A DNA stretch of 64,000 nucleotides from positions 2,837,501-2,901,500 of the forward strand of contig NZ_CP110257.1 of assembly GCF_026013905.1 (NCBI RefSeq), given 5' to 3'. The DNA comes from Schlegelella aquatica. GTDB taxonomy: Bacteria; Pseudomonadota; Gammaproteobacteria; Burkholderiales; Burkholderiaceae_C. The notes beneath the pieces were generated by a model. The model did no database searches, was not told the origin of the DNA, and worked only from the letters and a program-made list of their open reading frames with translations. A program made the position numbers and the translations under genes. Every line of letters starts with the position of its first letter. Position 1 is the first letter of the stretch. This document shows, one piece after another, positions 19,023-55,071 of the stretch.

Positions 19023-20182
19023 GGAAGGTCTGAACAACTCCGCCCGATTGCGCGACAATGCCTCACCGTGATCGGGGTGAGTGCGATGCAGCTGTCGTTC
19101 GGTGATGCCGAGGGTCTGGGGAGCCGCAAGCGCACGCGGCGCGAGGTGTTTTTGGCGGAGATGGAGCAGGTGGTGCCGTGGCAGGCGCTGCTGGGTCTGA
19201 TCGAGCCGCACTACCCGAAGATGGGCCGTCCCGGTCGCCAGCCCTATCCGTTGGCGACGATGCTGCGCATCCACTTCCTGCAGCAGTGGTATGCGCTCAG
19301 CGACCCGGCGATGGAAGAAGCCTTGTACGACACGCCGGTGATGCGCCGCTTCGCGCAGTTGGGCGGGCTTGCCGACATCCCGGACGAGACGACGATCCTC
19401 AACTTCCGCCGGCTGTTGGAGACGCACGGGCTGGCCGAGAAGCTCTTCGAGCAGGTCAACGCCCATCTTCAGCGCAAGGGCCTGAGCCTGCGCAGTGGCA
19501 CGATCGTGGATGCCACGATCATCAGTGCGCCGAGCTCGACCAAGAACAAGGCGGGCGAGCGCGATCCGGCGATGCACCAGACCAAGAAGGGCAACCAGTG
19601 GTTCTTCGGGATGAAGGCGCACATCGGCGTGGATGACGCGTCCGGTCTGGTGCACCACGTGGAATGCACGGCGGCGAACGTGGCCGACGTGACGCAGGTG
19701 TACAAGCTGCTGCACGGCCGGGAAGACACGGTGTGCGGCGACAGCGGCTACACGGGTGCCGAGAAGCGCGAGGAGCTGCAGGACGTGGACGCCGGATTCC
19801 TGATCGCGGAGAAGCCGTCGAAGCTGCGTGCGATGAAGAACGAGCGCGAGCGGCGCTACGCCGAGCGGTGGGAGCGCTACAAGGCCAGTCTGCGGGCGAA
19901 GGTGGAGCACCCGTTCCGGGTGATCAAGCGGCAGTTCGGCTACACGAAGGTGCGCTACCGCGGCCTGGCGAAGAACGCGGCGCAGGTGCTGACGCTGTTC
20001 GCGCTGTCGAACCTGTGGATGGCGCGCCGGCGTTTGTTGCCGACGACGGGAGCAGTGCGTCCGTAAGGCGGGGAAACCCGCCAAAAACCGCCCTGCACGG
20101 GCGAAATCCGGCTCGAAAGCGACGCCAGGCCGGCGCCACGATGCCGCAATCCGGGCGGCAGAGCGGGTTGTTCAGACCTTCC
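19023..20182. mobile_element. IS5-family insertion sequence, complete (about 1160 bp)
   Basis: The element is bounded by perfect 16-bp terminal inverted repeats: GGAAGGTCTGAACAAC at 19023-19038 and its reverse complement at 20167-20182, flanked by a CTAG duplication. It carries one intact transposase gene on the plus strand. Joining the flanks across one CTAG copy restores a continuous porin upstream region, so the element inserted between the porin Shine-Dalgarno sequence and its promoter. Intact repeats, duplication and transposase suggest a recent, possibly active insertion. Confidence 0.9.
19068..20066 (+). CDS. IS5-family transposase
   Basis: DDE transposase of about 326-332 aa; the start is either GTG 19068 or, more likely, ATG 19086 (MQLSFGDAEG). 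The N-terminal DUF772-type DNA-binding region contains PYPLATMLRIHFLQQWYALSD. DDE-domain blocks follow: TIVDATIISAPSSTKNKAGERD (quoted in part), the HQTKKGNQWFFGMKAHIGVD region, and the C-terminal VEHPFRVIKRQFGYTK motif with the catalytic Glu. It matches IS5 itself closely over its whole length and has no frameshift. It is transcribed away from the porin gene. Confidence 0.95.
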   Translation: MIGVSAMQLSFGDAEGLGSRKRTRREVFLAEMEQVVPWQALLGLIEPHYPKMGRPGRQPYPLATMLRIHFLQQWYALSDPAMEEALYDTPVMRRFAQLGGLADIPDETTILNFRRLLETHGLAEKLFEQVNAHLQRKGLSLRSGTIVDATIISAPSSTKNKAGERDPAMHQTKKGNQWFFGMKAHIGVDDASGLVHHVECTAANVADVTQVYKLLHGREDTVCGDSGYTGAEKREELQDVDAGFLIAEKPSKLRAMKNERERRYAERWERYKASLRAKVEHPFRVIKRQFGYTKVRYRGLAKNAAQVLTLFALSNLWMARRRLLPTTGAVRP

Positions 20183-20442: not shown

Positions 20443-21078
20443 ATGCCCCTGAGTGCCGTCGATACCTTGATTTCCACCGCGGACAACGCGCTGCGCACCG
20501 TCTTCGGAGTGCACCGAGCCGGGCGGCCGCGGCCGCAGCCGGCCGTGCAGCCCGGGCCCCTGTCCGAGGATGAACGCCGACTGGCCGCAGCACTGATGCG
20601 CGTGAACCATGTCGGGGAAGTGTGTGCGCAGGCCCTGTACACCGGCCAGGCGCTCGTGACCCGGGACCCGGCCCTCAAGGCGCATCTGGAGGAGGCCGCT
20701 CGCGAGGAAACGGACCATCTCGCGTGGACGGCCGACCGGGTGCACGACCTGGGCGGGCGCACGAGCCTGCTCAACCCCTTGTGGTATGCCGGCTCGTTCG
20801 CCATCGGCGTCGTGGCGGGCCGCGTCGGCGGCGACCCGGTGAGCCTGGGCTTCGTCGTCGAGACCGAGCGGCAGGTCGAGCAGCACCTGCAGGGGCATCT
20901 GGAGAGGCTGCCCGCGCAGGACACCGCCTCGCGCGCCATCGTGGAGCAGATGAAGCAGGACGAGGCGCGCCATGCCGACCGGGCGCAGGCGGCCGGCGCC
21001 GTCACGCTGCCCGTGCCGGTGCGCTGGGCCATGCGGGCGGCGGCCAAGGTGATGACGACGACCGCCCACTACATCTGA
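20443..21078 (+). CDS. coq7: Ubiquinone biosynthesis hydroxylase Coq7 (demethoxyubiquinone monooxygenase)
   Basis: 211-aa membrane-associated di-iron hydroxylase for the penultimate step of ubiquinone synthesis, C-5 hydroxylation of 2-polyprenyl-3-methyl-6-methoxy-1,4-benzoquinone. The di-iron ligands appear in [34 protein letters not shown] and KQDEARHAD, the expected E...ExxH...E...ExxH pattern. It is full length and ends MTTTAHYI, typical of burkholderial Coq7. It stands alone on the plus strand and runs toward the palindromic tandem repeat at 21126-21383. Confidence 0.95.
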
Positions 21079-21125
21079 GCCGACCCTGTACTTCGGCCCC
21101 TCGGACGCCCACCGCTGGGGTCGGG

Positions 21126-21383
21126 GCCCGGCTTCGGGCGGCCGGGCGCCGGGCATCGGATCTTCGCCCCCGGGCTTCGCCCGCCCCCCGGGGGGGGCCG
21201 CGGCCCGGCTTCGGGCGGCCGGGCGCCGGGCATCGGATCTTCGCCCCCGGGCTTCGCCCGCCCCCCGGGGGGGCCGCGGCCCGGCTTCGGGCGGCCGGGC
21301 GCCGGGCATCGGATCTTCGCCCCCGGGCTTCGCCCGCCCCCCGGGGGGGCCGCGGCCCGGCTTCGGGCGGCCGGGCGCCGGGC
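21126..21383. repeat. GC-rich tandem repeat, unit 76-77 bp, about 3.4 copies, internally palindromic
   Basis: Near-identical units start at 21126, 21203 and 21279, and a partial fourth starts at 21355; the spacing is 77, 76 and 76 bp. The first unit has one extra G in its G/C run. Each unit holds several self-complementary blocks, for example GCCCGGCTTCGGGC, CCCGGGCTTCGCCCG and CCCCCCGGGGGGG. It fills the whole space between the convergent coq7 and OsmC genes and ends one base before the OsmC stop codon. It could serve as a bidirectional terminator or a repetitive extragenic palindrome cluster. Confidence 0.85.
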
Positions 21384-21384
21384 C

Positions 21385-21810
21385 TCAGGTGGCCTCGACC
21401 ACTTCGTAGCTGGTGGTCACCTCGGCGGTCTTGCCGAGCATGATGGTGGCCGAGCAGTACTTGTCGTGCGACAGCTCGATCGCGCGCTGCACGGCGGCTT
21501 CGGGCAGGTTGCGTCCGGTGACGACGAAGTGCAGGTGGATCTTGGTGAAGACCTTCGGGTCGGTGCTCGCCCGCTCGGCCTGCAGCCGCACCTGGCACCC
21601 CCGCACGTCGTGACGGCCGCGCTTGAGGATCAGTACCACGTCGTACGCGGTGCAGCCGCCGGCGCCCGCCAGCAGCGTTTCCATCGGCCGCGGGGCCAGG
21701 TTGCGTCCGCCGCCGTCGGGCGCGCCATCCATCGTCAGCAGGTGGCCGCTGCCGGTCTCGGCACTGAAGGCCATGCCCGAGGCGGGCAACCAGTTCACCG
21801 TGCATTCCAT
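21385..21810 (-). CDS. OsmC family protein (Ohr/OsmC-like peroxiredoxin)
   Basis: 141-aa OsmC-fold protein. Both conserved cysteines are present, in GAGGCTAYDVV (about residue 50) and SHDKYCSATIML (about residue 120), consistent with thiol-dependent peroxide reduction. MECTVNWLPASGMAFSAET at ATG 21810 is the usual start of this YhfA-like subgroup. Upstream in-frame codons to 21987 are low-complexity and not conserved. Its 3' end abuts the tandem repeat. Confidence 0.9.
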   Translation of the reverse strand: MECTVNWLPASGMAFSAETGSGHLLTMDGAPDGGGRNLAPRPMETLLAGAGGCTAYDVVLILKRGRHDVRGCQVRLQAERASTDPKVFTKIHLHFVVTGRNLPEAAVQRAIELSHDKYCSATIMLGKTAEVTTSYEVVEAT

Positions 21811-21903
21811 CGTGGGCCTCGCGTTCCGTGAATTTGTGCAGTGCATGGCGATTCTGACACCACCCGGCACCGGGTGCAGGCGCGCGGAATGGGCGCAGCG
21901 ATA

Positions 21904-21932
21904 TTGCAGCGCATCATGGATGACGTTAAACT
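21904..21932 (+). promoter_or_regulatory. Candidate promoter for the putative small RNA
   Basis: TTGCAG (21904-21909), a 17-nt spacer and TAAACT (21927-21932). The -10 keeps four of six consensus bases and the spacing is ideal. The -10 lies inside a dyad TAAAC-N4-GTTTA (21927-21940) that could be an operator. Transcription would start near 21939-21940. Confidence 0.45.
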
Positions 21933-21939
21933 TATGTTT

Positions 21940-22072
21940 ATGTGATGCGAGTCGTGCTGCCGCCGCAGCGGCGCAGCAAGGCGGCATCGGCGAGTCTCCT
22001 TTCAGTTTGTCTCCTCCACCCTCCTCCTTTGGTGGATTCGGCCCGAGGCCTCACGGCTTCGGGCCTTTTTTC
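21940..22072 (+). ncRNA. Putative trans-acting small RNA with an anti-Shine-Dalgarno (CCUCCUCC) loop
   Basis: A transcript of about 133 nt is predicted from the promoter at 21904-21932 to the terminator at 22041-22072. It has a 5' stem-loop (about 21955-21979) and a single-stranded UCUCC-rich segment. A hairpin follows: TCCACC (22016-22021) pairs with GGTGGA (22032-22037) and presents the loop CTCCTCCTTT. The 8-mer CCTCCTCC (22021-22028) is complementary to ribosome-binding sites. A hairpin with a CCUCCUCC loop followed directly by a Rho-independent terminator is the architecture of the cuckoo/CcsR-type sRNAs known in alphaproteobacteria. Alternative: an attenuator leader of ilvA, whose start is 190 nt downstream. 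Confidence 0.5.
22041..22072 (+). terminator. Strong Rho-independent terminator of the putative sRNA
   Basis: An 11-bp stem pairs 22041-22051 with 22056-22066 (one G-U pair) around a TCAC loop, followed by six T residues at 22067-22072. No protein gene ends upstream on this strand, which is the main reason to propose a non-coding transcript here. Confidence 0.85.
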
Positions 22073-22177
22073 TTCTGAGCGGGCCGCGGCGCCTCGAAGG
22101 CGCCCGAGATCGCGAGGGCTCGTTGCCGCGTCGCCTCCTGCATGGCGCAGCGCAGCAAGCCCGGGCAAGGGTTGGCT

Positions 22178-22259: not shown

Positions 22260-23816
22260 ATGCCTCGCACGACCCGCGCCTCGACGTCGCGCACGAAGCG
22301 ACTCACCCCTGCCGACTACTTGCAGAAGATCCTGACGGCCAAGGTGTACGACGTCGCGATCGAGTCGCAGCTGGAGCCGGCGCGGCGGCTCTCGCGCCGG
22401 CTGGGCAATGAGGTGCTGCTCAAGCGCGAGGACAACCAGCCCGTCTTCAGCTTCAAGCTGCGGGGCGCCTACAACAAGATGGCGCACTTGAGCGCCGCGC
22501 AACTCAAGCGCGGGGTCATCTGCGCTTCGGCGGGCAACCATGCGCAGGGGGTGGCGCTCGCGGCGCGCCGCCTGGGGTGCCGCGCCGTGATCGTGATGCC
22601 GGTGACCACGCCCCAGGTCAAGATCGACGCGGTGCGCGCCCTCGGTGGCGAGGTGGTGCTGCATGGCGACAGCTACTCGGACGCCTACCTGCACGCCGTC
22701 GCGCTCGAAAAGAAGCAGGGCCTCACTTTCGTGCACCCTTTCGACGACCCCGATGTGATCGCCGGCCAGGGCACGATCGCCATGGAGATCCTGCGGCAGC
22801 ACCAGGGGCCGATCGATGCGATCTTCGTCGCCATCGGCGGGGGCGGGCTGATTTCGGGGGTGGCGAACTACGTCAAGGCGGTGCGCCCCGAGATCCAGGT
22901 GATCGGGGTGCAGATGAACGACTCCGACGCGATGTTGCGCTCGGTGAGACACGGGCGTCGCGTGCAGCTGCCCGACGTGGGCCTCTTCGCGGACGGCACG
23001 GCCGTCAAGCTCGTGGGCGAGGAAACCTTCCGCATCGCGCGCGAGCTCGTGGACGACTACGTCGTCGTGGACACGGACGCGGTGTGTGCGGCGATCAAGG
23101 ACATCTTCGAGGATACGCGCAGCATCGTCGAACCCTCGGGCGCGATGGCGGTGGCGGCCATCAAGCAGTACGTCGAGGCCCGGCGCTGCAAGAACAAGAC
23201 CTTCGTCGCGGTCACGTGCGGCGCGAACATGAACTTCGACCGGCTGCGCTTCGTGGCGGAACGCGCGGAGGTCGGCGAGGAGCGCGAGGCGCTGTTCGCC
23301 GTGACGATCCCGGAGGAGCGCGGCAGCTTCCGGCGCTTTTGCGAACTCGTCGGGCAGCGCAGCGTGACCGAGTTCAACTACCGCATCTCGGACGAGAAGG
23401 TCGCGCACATCTTCGTCGGCCTGAGCACCAGCAACCGCGGCGAGTCGGCCAAGATCGCGGCCTCGTTCGAGAAGCACGGCTTTCCCACGCTGGACCTCAC
23501 GCACGACGAGCTGGCCAAGCAGCATCTGCGGCACATGGTGGGCGGGCGCAGTGCGTTGGCGAAGGACGAGTTGCTGTATCGATTCATCTTCCCCGAGCGC
23601 CCGGGGGCGTTGATGAAGTTCCTCTCCAGCATGTCGCCCGAGTGGAACATCAGCCTCTTCCACTACCGCAACCAGGGTGCCGACTACGGCCGCATCCTGG
23701 TGGGCATCCAGGTGCCCAAGCGCGACAAGAAGGCGTTCCGGCAGTTCCTCGACACGCTGGCTTACCCCTACGTCGAAGAAACCGACAACCCGGTGTACCG
23801 GTTGTTCCTGCGGTAG
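22260..23816 (+). CDS. ilvA: Threonine ammonia-lyase, biosynthetic (IlvA)
   Basis: 518-aa PLP enzyme converting threonine to 2-oxobutanoate, the first step of isoleucine synthesis. The catalytic domain (about 20-330) has PLP lysine block SFKLRGAYNKM, SAGNHAQGVA and the phosphate-binding IGGGGLISGV. Two ACT-like regulatory domains (about 335-518) show that this is the allosteric biosynthetic form. ATG 22260 is chosen because GGAG lies 7 nt upstream and MPRTTRAS begins shortly before the conserved LTPADYLQKIL; the frame is open much further upstream, but that part is not conserved. It is preceded by the putative sRNA. Confidence 0.95.
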   Translation: MPRTTRASTSRTKRLTPADYLQKILTAKVYDVAIESQLEPARRLSRRLGNEVLLKREDNQPVFSFKLRGAYNKMAHLSAAQLKRGVICASAGNHAQGVALAARRLGCRAVIVMPVTTPQVKIDAVRALGGEVVLHGDSYSDAYLHAVALEKKQGLTFVHPFDDPDVIAGQGTIAMEILRQHQGPIDAIFVAIGGGGLISGVANYVKAVRPEIQVIGVQMNDSDAMLRSVRHGRRVQLPDVGLFADGTAVKLVGEETFRIARELVDDYVVVDTDAVCAAIKDIFEDTRSIVEPSGAMAVAAIKQYVEARRCKNKTFVAVTCGANMNFDRLRFVAERAEVGEEREALFAVTIPEERGSFRRFCELVGQRSVTEFNYRISDEKVAHIFVGLSTSNRGESAKIAASFEKHGFPTLDLTHDELAKQHLRHMVGGRSALAKDELLYRFIFPERPGALMKFLSSMSPEWNISLFHYRNQGADYGRILVGIQVPKRDKKAFRQFLDTLAYPYVEETDNPVYRLFLR

Positions 23817-49229: not shown

Positions 49230-49288
49230 TCTTCCGGCAACGAGTTCCCTCGCACCTTCGAGTGCCCACCACCAAAAGGAGACAAGAG

Positions 49289-50617
49289 ATGAAACTGAAG
49301 TCACTCGCACTCGCTGCCGCTTGCGCGGCCGCGGTGTCCGGCTCGCTGATGGCCCCGCCTGCCCATGCGCAGGCCAAGGAGCAGTTCTTTCCGCTGCTGG
49401 TCTACCGCACCGGCCCGTACGCGCCCAACGGCACGCCCTGGGCCAACGGCAAGCAGGACTACATCAAGCTCATCAACGAGCGCGACGGCGGCGTCAACGG
49501 CGTCAAGCTCACGTTCGAGGAGTGCGAGACCGGCTACGCGACCGACAAGGGCGTGGAGTGCTACGAGCGCCTGAAGGGCAAGGGCGCGACCGTCTTCGAC
49601 CCGCAGTCCACCGGCATCACGTTCGCGCTCACCGACAAAGCGCCGGCCGACAAGATCCCGCTGATCACGCTGGGCTACGGCCTGTCGGCCTCGCAGGACG
49701 GCGGCGTCTTCAAATGGAACTTCCCCTTGATGGGCAGCTACTGGACCGGCGCCGACATCCTGATCCAGCACATCGGCAAGAAGGAAGGCGGCCTCGACAA
49801 GCTCAAGGGCAAGAAGATCGCCCTCGTCTATCACGACTCGCCGTTCGGCAAGGAGCCCATCCCGCTGCTTGAGGAACGCTCCAAGATGCACGGCTTCGAG
49901 CTGCTGAAGATCCCGGTCACCGCGCCGGGTGTCGAGCAGAAGTCCGCCTGGCTGCAGGTGCGCCAGCAGCGCCCCGACTACGTGCTGCTGTGGGGCTGGG
50001 GGGTGATGAACTCCACCGCCCTGAAGGAAGCGCAGGCCACCGGCTACCCGCGCGAGAAGATGTACGGCGTGTGGTGGGCCGGGGCGGAACCCGACGTGAA
50101 GGACGTCGGCGAAGGCGCCAAGGGCTACAACGCGCTGGCGCTCAACGGCTACGGCCAACAGCCCAAGGTGATCCAGGACATCCTGAAGCATGTGCACGGC
50201 AAGGGCATGGGCACCGGCCCCAAGGAAGAGGTCGGCTCCGTGCTCTACACCCGCGGCGTGATCATCCAGATGCTGGCGGTGGAAGCCGTGCGCCGCGCGC
50301 AGGAGCGCTTCGGCAAGGGCAAGGTCATGACGGGCGAACAGGTGCGCTGGGGCTTGGAGAACCTCGCGCTCGACCAGAAGAAGCTCGACGCGCTGGGCTT
50401 CAATGGCGTGTTGCGGCCCATCAGCACCTCGTGCCAGGACCACATGGGGTCGACCTGGGCCCGCGTGCACACCTGGGACGGCAGCAAGTGGAACTTCAGC
50501 TCCGACTGGTACCAGGCGGACGAACAGATCATCCGCCCGATGGTGCGCGCCGCGGCCGACAAGTACGCCAACGAAAAGAAGCTGACCCGCCGCACGCCGC
50601 AGGACTGCCAGTCCTGA
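49289..50617 (+). CDS. ABC transporter substrate-binding protein (LivJ/LivK type)
   Basis: 442-aa periplasmic binding protein with a Sec signal peptide cleaved near PPAHAQA (about residue 28). Type I periplasmic fold with FFPLLVYRTGPYAPNG at the start, the DPQSTGITFALTD region and KIALVYHDSPFGKE at the hinge. It is about 70 residues longer than E. coli LivJ and carries a Trp-rich segment (LLWGWGVMN, MYGVWWAGAE) near the presumed pocket, suggesting an aromatic or hydrophobic ligand rather than leucine. That ligand guess is inference. Confidence 0.9.
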   Translation: MKLKSLALAAACAAAVSGSLMAPPAHAQAKEQFFPLLVYRTGPYAPNGTPWANGKQDYIKLINERDGGVNGVKLTFEECETGYATDKGVECYERLKGKGATVFDPQSTGITFALTDKAPADKIPLITLGYGLSASQDGGVFKWNFPLMGSYWTGADILIQHIGKKEGGLDKLKGKKIALVYHDSPFGKEPIPLLEERSKMHGFELLKIPVTAPGVEQKSAWLQVRQQRPDYVLLWGWGVMNSTALKEAQATGYPREKMYGVWWAGAEPDVKDVGEGAKGYNALALNGYGQQPKVIQDILKHVHGKGMGTGPKEEVGSVLYTRGVIIQMLAVEAVRRAQERFGKGKVMTGEQVRWGLENLALDQKKLDALGFNGVLRPISTSCQDHMGSTWARVHTWDGSKWNFSSDWYQADEQIIRPMVRAAADKYANEKKLTRRTPQDCQS

Positions 50618-54043: not shown

Positions 54044-54096
54044 CGGCCGGTCTTTCGGACTCGCACCGAGAGTCCCTTTCCGCTTAGGAGACACGC

Positions 54097-55071
54097 ATGA
54101 AACGTCTGCTGATGGCCGCCGCGGTCGCGGCCCTGACCTCCGGGGCAGCCTACGCTCAGGACTACCCCACCAAGCCGGTGACCTTCGTCGTTCCGTTCGC
54201 GGCGGGCGGGCCGACCGACAAGGTGGCGCGCGACCTGGCCGACACCATGCGCAAGGCGCTGGGGGGCCAGATCATCATTGAGAACGTCGCGGGCGCCGGC
54301 GGCACCCTGGGCGCCACCAAGGTCGCCAAGGCCGCACCGGACGGCTACACGATCCTGCTGGCGCACGTGGCGATGGCCACCTCGCCCGCGCTGTACCGCA
54401 ACCTCCAGTACAAGACGCTGGAGGACTTCGAGTACATCGGCCTCATCAACGAAGTGCCGATGACGCTGATCGGCCGTCCCACGCTGCCGGCCAACAACTA
54501 CGCCGAGCTGCTCAAGTGGCTCAACGACAACAAGGGCAAGATCAACCTGGCCAACGCGGGCCTCGGCTCGGCCTCGCACCTGTGCGGCCTGCTGTTCATG
54601 TCCACCCTCAAGATCGACATGACCACCGTGCCGTACAAGGGCACCGGCCCCGCGATGACCGACCTGATCGGCGGCCAGGTCGATCTGATGTGCGACCAGA
54701 CCACCAACACCACCACGCAGATCGAGGGCGGCAAGGTGAAGGCCTATGCCGTGACCACGGCGAAGCGCCTGGCCACGCCGGCGCTCAAGCACCTGCCCAC
54801 CCTCGACGAGTCGGGACTCAAGGGATTCAACGTCACGATCTGGCACGGGCTGTACGCGCCCAAGGGCACGCCCAAGCCTGTCCTCGACAAGCTCAATGCC
54901 GCCCTCAAGACGGCGCTGAAGGACCCCGAGTTCCTGAAGCGCCAGGAATCGCTCGGTGCGGTGGTGGTGACGGACAACCGCGTCAATCCGGCGGATCACA
55001 AGAAGTTCGTGGAAGCCGAGATCAACAAGTGGGGCCCGGTCATCAAGGCCGCAGGCCAGTACGCCGACTGA
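54097..55071 (+). CDS. Bug family (tripartite tricarboxylate transporter) substrate-binding protein
   Basis: 324-aa periplasmic binding protein. Signal peptide MKRLLMAAAVAALTSGAAYA is followed by the Bug hallmark YPTKPVTFVVPFAAGGPTD. Other family blocks: IENVAGAGGTLGATKVAKA, VPYKGTGPAMTDLIGGQVD and the ADPHKK-like terminus NPADHKKFVEAEINKWG. RBS TAGGAG lies upstream. No TctA/TctB membrane genes are nearby, as is typical for the many orphan Bug proteins of Burkholderiales. The ligand is a carboxylate or small organic acid by family analogy. Confidence 0.94.
   Translation: MKRLLMAAAVAALTSGAAYAQDYPTKPVTFVVPFAAGGPTDKVARDLADTMRKALGGQIIIENVAGAGGTLGATKVAKAAPDGYTILLAHVAMATSPALYRNLQYKTLEDFEYIGLINEVPMTLIGRPTLPANNYAELLKWLNDNKGKINLANAGLGSASHLCGLLFMSTLKIDMTTVPYKGTGPAMTDLIGGQVDLMCDQTTNTTTQIEGGKVKAYAVTTAKRLATPALKHLPTLDESGLKGFNVTIWHGLYAPKGTPKPVLDKLNAALKTALKDPEFLKRQESLGAVVVTDNRVNPADHKKFVEAEINKWGPVIKAAGQYAD

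Follow-up and report, generated by a model that had tools for sequence, protein, structure and literature searches.

An RF02278 anti-Shine-Dalgarno small RNA gene of Schlegelella aquatica and a possible link of its promoter to PhaR and stored PHB

Introduction

In the window, i.e. the whole analysed stretch of 64,000 nucleotides from Schlegelella aquatica, a gap of 449 bp separates the start of an osmC-like gene (21810) from the start of an ilvA-like gene (22260). A first-pass annotation had correctly described this gap and placed in it an sRNA that ends in a terminator and exposes a CCUCCUCC-type anti-Shine-Dalgarno (anti-SD) sequence. The locus raises the question of which RNA is made here, which signal controls it and which mRNAs it acts on. 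The reading preferred here, with a probability of roughly 0.7, is a trans-acting anti-SD sRNA of the Rfam family RF02278 that would be orthologous to S17 of Bordetella, controlled by PhaR and PHB, and able to block the ribosome-binding sites (RBSs) of uptake and catabolic genes. The kind of RNA is already known; the PHB link and the target logic are the new, testable part.

An RF02278 sRNA gene between osmC and ilvA

The segment 22008-22072 (+) matched RF02278 (Betaproteobacteria toxic sRNA) with 66.9 bits (E 4.7e-13, positions 1-64 of 64; gathering score 50 bits). The RNA gene is a real member of this known family, which was named after growth inhibition on overexpression. In the one-contig genome of 3.35 Mb it is the single match above the cut-off, and the next best reached 33.8 bits. 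RF02278 RNAs are widespread: among 150 genomes of the same bacterial family, 132 had a match at E 0.01 or better, 107 had one above the cut-off and 18 had none. The NmsRb/NmsR model (RF02877) was matched over its whole length at 21974-22070 with 43.1 bits; as this is below its gathering score of 52 bits, membership in that family was rejected. The MmgR model (RF00519) scored 14 of 41 bits on the window. The features of the locus are as follows.

20443..21078 (+): coq7-like neighbour gene; homologous stretch upstream in 29/30 family loci; named after the first-pass annotation and the S17 paper
21385..21810 (-): osmC-like neighbour gene; homologous stretch in 30/30 family loci; named after the first-pass annotation
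21904..21932 (+): promoter TTGCAG, 17 nt, TAAACT; conserved in the 30-locus alignment
21939..22072 (+): predicted long transcript of about 134 nt, postulated on the basis of the promoter and of S17L as an analogue
22008..22072 (+): RF02278 sRNA core, the predicted processed short form
22008..22014 (+): exposed seed UGUCUCC (Site 1); invariant in 29/29 loci
22015..22036 (+): hairpin 1 with CU-rich loop (Site 2); one pair changed on both sides
22040..22071 (+): Rho-independent terminator from a terminator scan; two-sided changes in 8/10 pairs
22260..23816 (+): ilvA-like neighbour gene; homologous stretch downstream in 29/30 family loci; named after the first-pass annotation

The promoter-like pair with 17-nt spacing noted earlier is present (-35 TTGCAG at 21904-21909, -10 TAAACT at 21927-21932) and conserved in relatives, though it is too weak for the strict 9-of-12 promoter scan, which found 0 sites with 0.1 expected. 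The terminator was likewise confirmed, with an 11-bp stem at 22040-22065 followed by TTTTTT. One terminator-like site was found on the + strand and two in all; the terminator alone is without significance because shuffles gave 0.8 for both strands. The fold of 21940-22074 had -64.4 kcal/mol (z -4.34), and none of 200 shuffles was equally stable. The 5' stem-loop of the first-pass annotation was also predicted by folding, but neither its sequence nor its length is conserved in the alignment of 30 loci.

In hairpin 1, TCCACC (22015-22020) pairs with GGTGGA (22031-22036) and encloses the loop CTCCTCCTTT at 22021-22030. The anti-SD motif assigned to this loop is there, but one base off, since CCTCCTCC lies at 22020-22027 and not at 22021-22028. 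A second CU-rich run, TCTCCTCC, was found at 22010-22017 within the most conserved part; it had been placed just 5' of the hairpin, but its last three bases are inside the stem. The seed is open in the predicted short form (unpaired probability 0.97-1.0), while pairing in the long form largely hides its first four bases (0.05-0.12 open), in agreement with the lower activity reported for S17L.

The structure was examined in an alignment of 29 of the 30 loci (L015 left out), in which the sRNA core is conserved and the flanks drift. The motif that had been expected to be conserved in relatives was the one in the loop; instead, the seed-containing UGUCUCCUCCA is invariant in 29/29 aligned loci, whereas the loop itself varies. 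In the two helices, 93.1% of cells are paired. Changes on both sides were seen in 58 cells, where shuffles gave 16.0 and slid versions no more than 12, and the covariation score was 0.351 (slid versions at most 0.107). Two-sided change affected nine pairs, of which eight belong to the terminator. Helix 1 has six pairs: five are invariant and the remaining one changes from C-G to U-A in 5/29 loci. The two-hairpin structure of RF02278 is kept by covariation that is mostly carried by the terminator.

Between coq7 and osmC (21115-21385), the window also contains about three near-identical, GC-rich tandem palindromic copies.

Synteny and relation to Bordetella S17

Thirty same-family loci were compared: that of the window and those of the 29 sRNA matches that scored best elsewhere in the family sample. 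osmC was present in 30, coq7 in 29 and ilvA in 29, with side and strand constant for each. Beyond this family, the 29-nt core and the start of the terminator were found exactly in at least 120 named contigs; among 80 of them named by title, most belong to Alcaligenaceae and nine to Bordetella. In the fetched stretches of these at least 120 named loci, coq7 was found in 97/120, osmC in 91/120 and ilvA in 1/120. In many of them, the sRNA directly follows coq7 and osmC lies on the far side of coq7. In L060 and L067 (both Pigmentiphaga) and in L155, the sRNA core is duplicated in tandem at a distance of about 380-430 nt, and in L067 and L155 an operator-like block precedes each copy.

S17 of Bordetella pertussis adjoins coq7 (PMC11722255), and together with the RF02278 match this corrects the first-pass statement that no named homologue exists. 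The coq7 neighbourhood of S17 is shared by the window, with osmC intervening, and so are a -35 beginning with TTGCA, the 17-nt spacer and the terminator. The 29-nt core is exact in the nine listed Bordetella contigs, and the conserved 27-nt block of the S17 short form is present; both comparisons refer to Bordetella relatives and not to B. pertussis itself. The window differs by osmC between coq7 and the RNA and by ilvA behind it, and S17 was studied under Bvg control. The window RNA is probably orthologous to Bordetella S17.

S17 is made as a 190-nt form, from which RNase E helps to produce the 67-nt short form; it depends on Hfq, and it directly represses BP2158 via Site 1 as demonstrated with compensatory mutants (PMC11722255). 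Complementarity near the RBS was reported for 70 of 91 candidate targets, and S17 was hardly toxic in E. coli (PMC11722255). Its authors postulate a repressor without naming it; PhaR, PHB and phasin are unmentioned in the available parts of that paper (PMC11722255).

A putative PhaR-type operator at the promoter

The 30-locus alignment showed a conserved block TTGCNNCGCANCA over the -35, followed by TANACT. This block resembles the Ralstonia eutropha PhaR consensus, which the accessible portion of PMC12849132 gives as YTKNTGCRNYGCANMAR. With one mismatch or less, the consensus was matched in the 200 nt upstream of the sRNA in 14/30 loci; shuffles predict 0.18 such loci, and one of 300 control windows had such a match. 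The phaR gene itself is present (PF07879 at C1:1814054-1814230, 105.8 bits), as it is in 149/150 genomes of the family. The syntenic site in the window is:

21901..21917 (+): degenerate PhaR-type operator ATATTGCAGCGCATCAT that overlaps the -35; differs from the published consensus at 3 positions; matrix score 5.6

A matrix was trained solely on 78 phaP-promoter sites, which had been preselected by the published consensus (2 mismatches or fewer), with the own genome left out. With 300 flanking windows as controls, it scored 27 of the first 30 loci beyond the 95% level and 23 beyond the 99% level, and 18 outscored every control. With 30 fresh orthologs, the next-best-scoring sRNA matches, the numbers were 26, 25 and 18 (360 controls). 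Below the 95% control level were 7/60 orthologs (L015, L025, L031, L251, L257, L258 and L275). Of ten further RF02278 matches, the single one that occurs in the osmC-coq7 context carries the site, as does only one of the other nine. The operator is thus tied to the coq7/osmC copy and not to the RNA family.

The window's own site lies at the same place as the strong sites of its orthologs, but its score is reached by 1.7% of 300 control windows, while the site of a genus mate scores 20.6. The best consensus match of the window (2 mismatches) falls in the predicted 5' stem; the matrix prefers the syntenic site to it. For the named loci, 113 sites remained after removal of stretches with less than 250 nt upstream. 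The separation was weaker here, with 65 above 95%, 22 above 99% and one above the maximum of 783 controls. The block may be a PhaR site in Bordetella as well. Overall, the comparisons suggest that the promoter of the coq7-osmC-ilvA copy overlaps a putative PhaR-type operator, which is new as far as the literature was searched: no report of PhaR control of RF02278 or of a phaP 3'UTR RNA was found among the best-ranked matches in the open literature.

Alternative readings of the locus

Alternatively, the RNA could be the same anti-SD sRNA while the block over its -35 is recognised by a different regulator whose site is a TTGC-GCA palindrome, or is a mere promoter feature, PHB being uninvolved. 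The weak site in the window would fit this, as would the Alcaligenaceae-type version of the block (mostly WTCTTGCANYGCACAAA), which the phaP matrix separates less well from controls. Against it stands that a matrix built from phaP promoters alone detects the sRNA site in the majority of orthologs, in both sets independently, yet in only 1/9 paralogs. The perfect PhaR consensus occurs in 6/30 orthologs of the first set and 7/30 of the fresh set, and the whole genome holds only two perfect sites, one of them at phaP. This reading without PHB is rated unlikely, but it is to be taken seriously.

That the operator belongs to the divergent osmC gene, its overlap with the sRNA promoter being a mere matter of position, is very improbable. 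The site does lie between osmC (-) and the sRNA (+) in the window's family; yet the spacing to the sRNA -10 is kept, the block TTGCNN-17-TANNNT precedes the sRNA in 88/113 sites of named loci, and in many of these loci osmC lies beyond coq7. Still harder to defend is a cis-acting leader or attenuator of ilvA. The RNA is on the same strand upstream of ilvA, which follows in 29/30 family loci, but the strong terminator ends 194 nt before ilvA, the core stands without ilvA in 119/120 of the named loci listed, and RF02278 paralogs occupy unrelated sites. A betaproteobacterial cuckoo/CcsR RNA by descent, suggested earlier from a likeness in layout (CU-rich loop hairpin plus terminator), can practically be dismissed, as the alphaproteobacterial models ar14 (16.6 of 58.8 bits), SorX (14.2 of 46.6) and SorY (16.2 of 111) stayed far below gathering while RF02278 reached 66.9 of 50.

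The second perfect PhaR-consensus site of the genome is located at L161 1501-1517 (C1:277839-277855), between an hpf-type gene and a ptsN-hprK-type pair according to sequence reading.

A similar element downstream of phaP

The second-best RF02278 match of the genome (33.8 bits; L002 1501-1573, -) begins 92 nt after the phaP stop. Forty phaP loci (L176-L215) were compared; in 39/40 the 250 nt upstream contain one or more PhaR sites with up to 2 mismatches. Downstream of phaP, a conserved element consisting of the seed UGUCUCCU[CU], a hairpin and a terminator was noticed. At the DNA level, 33/40 loci have TGTCTCCT[CT] at 11-145 nt from the phaP stop codon, followed in turn by a terminator-like end. 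Eight of the loci (seven from G145, G034, G032, G064, G103, G096, G051 and the window's own) had been chosen for an RF02278 match beside the phasin gene, and without them the count was 26/32. Four of the seven loci without the seed have, by eye, a shorter GTCTCCTCGG, GTCTCCTCGGG or TCCTCGG-type run.

RF02278 was matched at E 0.05 or better in 8/20 phaP-UTR loci with 29.7-47.9 bits, all below gathering. RNAalifold on 33 phaP-UTR elements recovered only five terminator pairs, the alignment being poor over hairpin 1; hairpin and terminator were judged from single folds of 12 elements. The spacing down to 11 nt speaks for processing from the phaP mRNA rather than for an own promoter in the gap. 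The phaP-UTR element resembles an sRNA derived from a 3'UTR, and it shares the seed UGUCUCC with the window RNA.

A transposase-like ORF was seen at 19068-20066 (+) of the window, and an apparently related piece, identified by eye, lies in the same genome just upstream of the operators of the phaP promoter (L002 about 2400-2700).

Predicted targets

The seed complement GGAGACA, followed by ATG after 1-10 nt, occurs at 52 genome sites; its reversed version occurs at 5. Receptor genes of the amino-acid/organic-acid type number 31 (13 TctC and 18 Peripla_BP_6), and GGAGACA sites precede 4 and 7 of them, 11 in all. Near-identical control SDs of the type GGAGA[AGT]A (59 rows, 57 sites) precede none of the 31 (Fisher, 11/52 vs 0/57, p 1.6e-4). 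The hypergeometric value was 9e-13 with an assumed total of 3000 genes.

Thirty of the 52 sites were fetched, and 28 gave frames of 60 aa or more. Family searches were made on 27 frames (10 with Pfam, 17 with NCBIfam; L219 left out), and 6 of the 17 NCBIfam-searched frames had no match at 1e-10. The genes behind the fetched sites include three for binding proteins of the branched-chain amino-acid type and three for TctC receptors, assigned by family or position, as well as those for a permease, a propionate-CoA ligase, FDH3 beta, a thiolase, 3-oxoacid CoA-transferase A and catechol 2,3-dioxygenase. Many of the genes lie outside uptake and catabolism, namely FabI, PDH E2, a response regulator, a nucleotidyl transferase, a peptidase and a chemoreceptor, together with TetR and AraC regulators. 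Two predicted targets lie in the window; their duplexes were computed with the first 24 nt of the sRNA.

49278..49291 (+): predicted target, from the RBS (GGAGACA) to the start codon (ATG) of a Peripla_BP_6 binding-protein gene; duplex -13.0 vs -9.3 kcal/mol for the 16S tail
54087..54099 (+): predicted target, from the RBS (GGAGACA) to the start codon (ATG) of a TctC-type receptor gene; duplex -12.7 vs -7.3 kcal/mol for the 16S tail

With its own neighbours, the sRNA gave -10.1 (ilvA), -10.8 (osmC) and -4.7 kcal/mol (coq7). The perfect 10-nt complement GGAGGAGACA was found nowhere in the genome within 10 nt of an ATG, so that perfect pairing would be short. The predicted receptor targets agree with the transporter-rich targets of S17 and with the carbon-use phenotypes of NcS27, for which the accessible part of PMC10987360 was consulted.

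Discussion

For the preferred reading, a PhaR-controlled S17-type sRNA, the following sequence of events is proposed. A sigma-70-type promoter at 21904-21932, conserved among the loci, would give a precursor of about 134 nt that ends at the terminator. When PHB is scarce, PhaR would sit on the operator overlapping the -35 and repress the sRNA; this step is modelled on the orthologs, the site of the window being weak. Again judging from the orthologs, PHB granules would titrate PhaR away and the sRNA would be derepressed. By homology to S17, RNase E would then trim the precursor to about 65 nt and free UGUCUCC, in line with the computed change in folding. With Hfq, the seed would pair with GGAGACA-type RBSs and block the translation of uptake receptors and catabolic enzymes; for this, pairing and target enrichment were computed, and repression is established for relatives only. 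The sister RNA from the phaP 3'UTR, with the same seed, would presumably be made together with phasin.

Several known systems are comparable, as far as the available parts of the sources go. The double-hairpin RNAs ncS03, ncS05, ncS27 and ncS62 of Burkholderia cenocepacia likewise belong to RF02278 and have two hairpins, CU-rich unpaired segments and predicted RBS targets in transport and metabolism; a common upstream motif was reported for three of the four (PMC5688073). The Neisseria siblings NmsR/NgncR (RF02877) share anti-SD segments and metabolic targets and are hard to express in E. coli, but their genes are in tandem and the window scores below the gathering score of their family (PMC5362039); the structural similarity to these siblings had been noted earlier in PMC5688073. 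MmgR of Sinorhizobium meliloti is an sRNA tied to PHB and negatively controlled by AniA (PhaR) (PMC8401924, PMC12542648). It differs in belonging to another family (RF00519), in being under NtrC control too and in affecting phasin levels. In its accessible part, a review calls the role of riboregulation in PHB synthesis of Cupriavidus necator undeciphered (PMC8401924).

Taken further, a PHB-sensing RNA circuit in this betaproteobacterial family may be envisaged, which is put forward tentatively and at somewhat less than even odds. PhaR repression would act on the RF02278 copy of the coq7-ilvA locus and likewise on the phasin mRNA, from whose 3'UTR a second UGUCUCC RNA would be released. On PHB build-up, both RNAs would mask the GGAGACA RBSs of branched-chain amino-acid and organic-acid uptake and of parts of aromatic and propionate catabolism, and PhaR might also be the repressor postulated for the S17 promoter. 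If true, the operator would give the S17-type copy a concrete signal, namely stored carbon, and would join this signal to a coherent set of predicted targets, the uptake receptors. The Betaproteobacteria would thereby gain a counterpart to MmgR.
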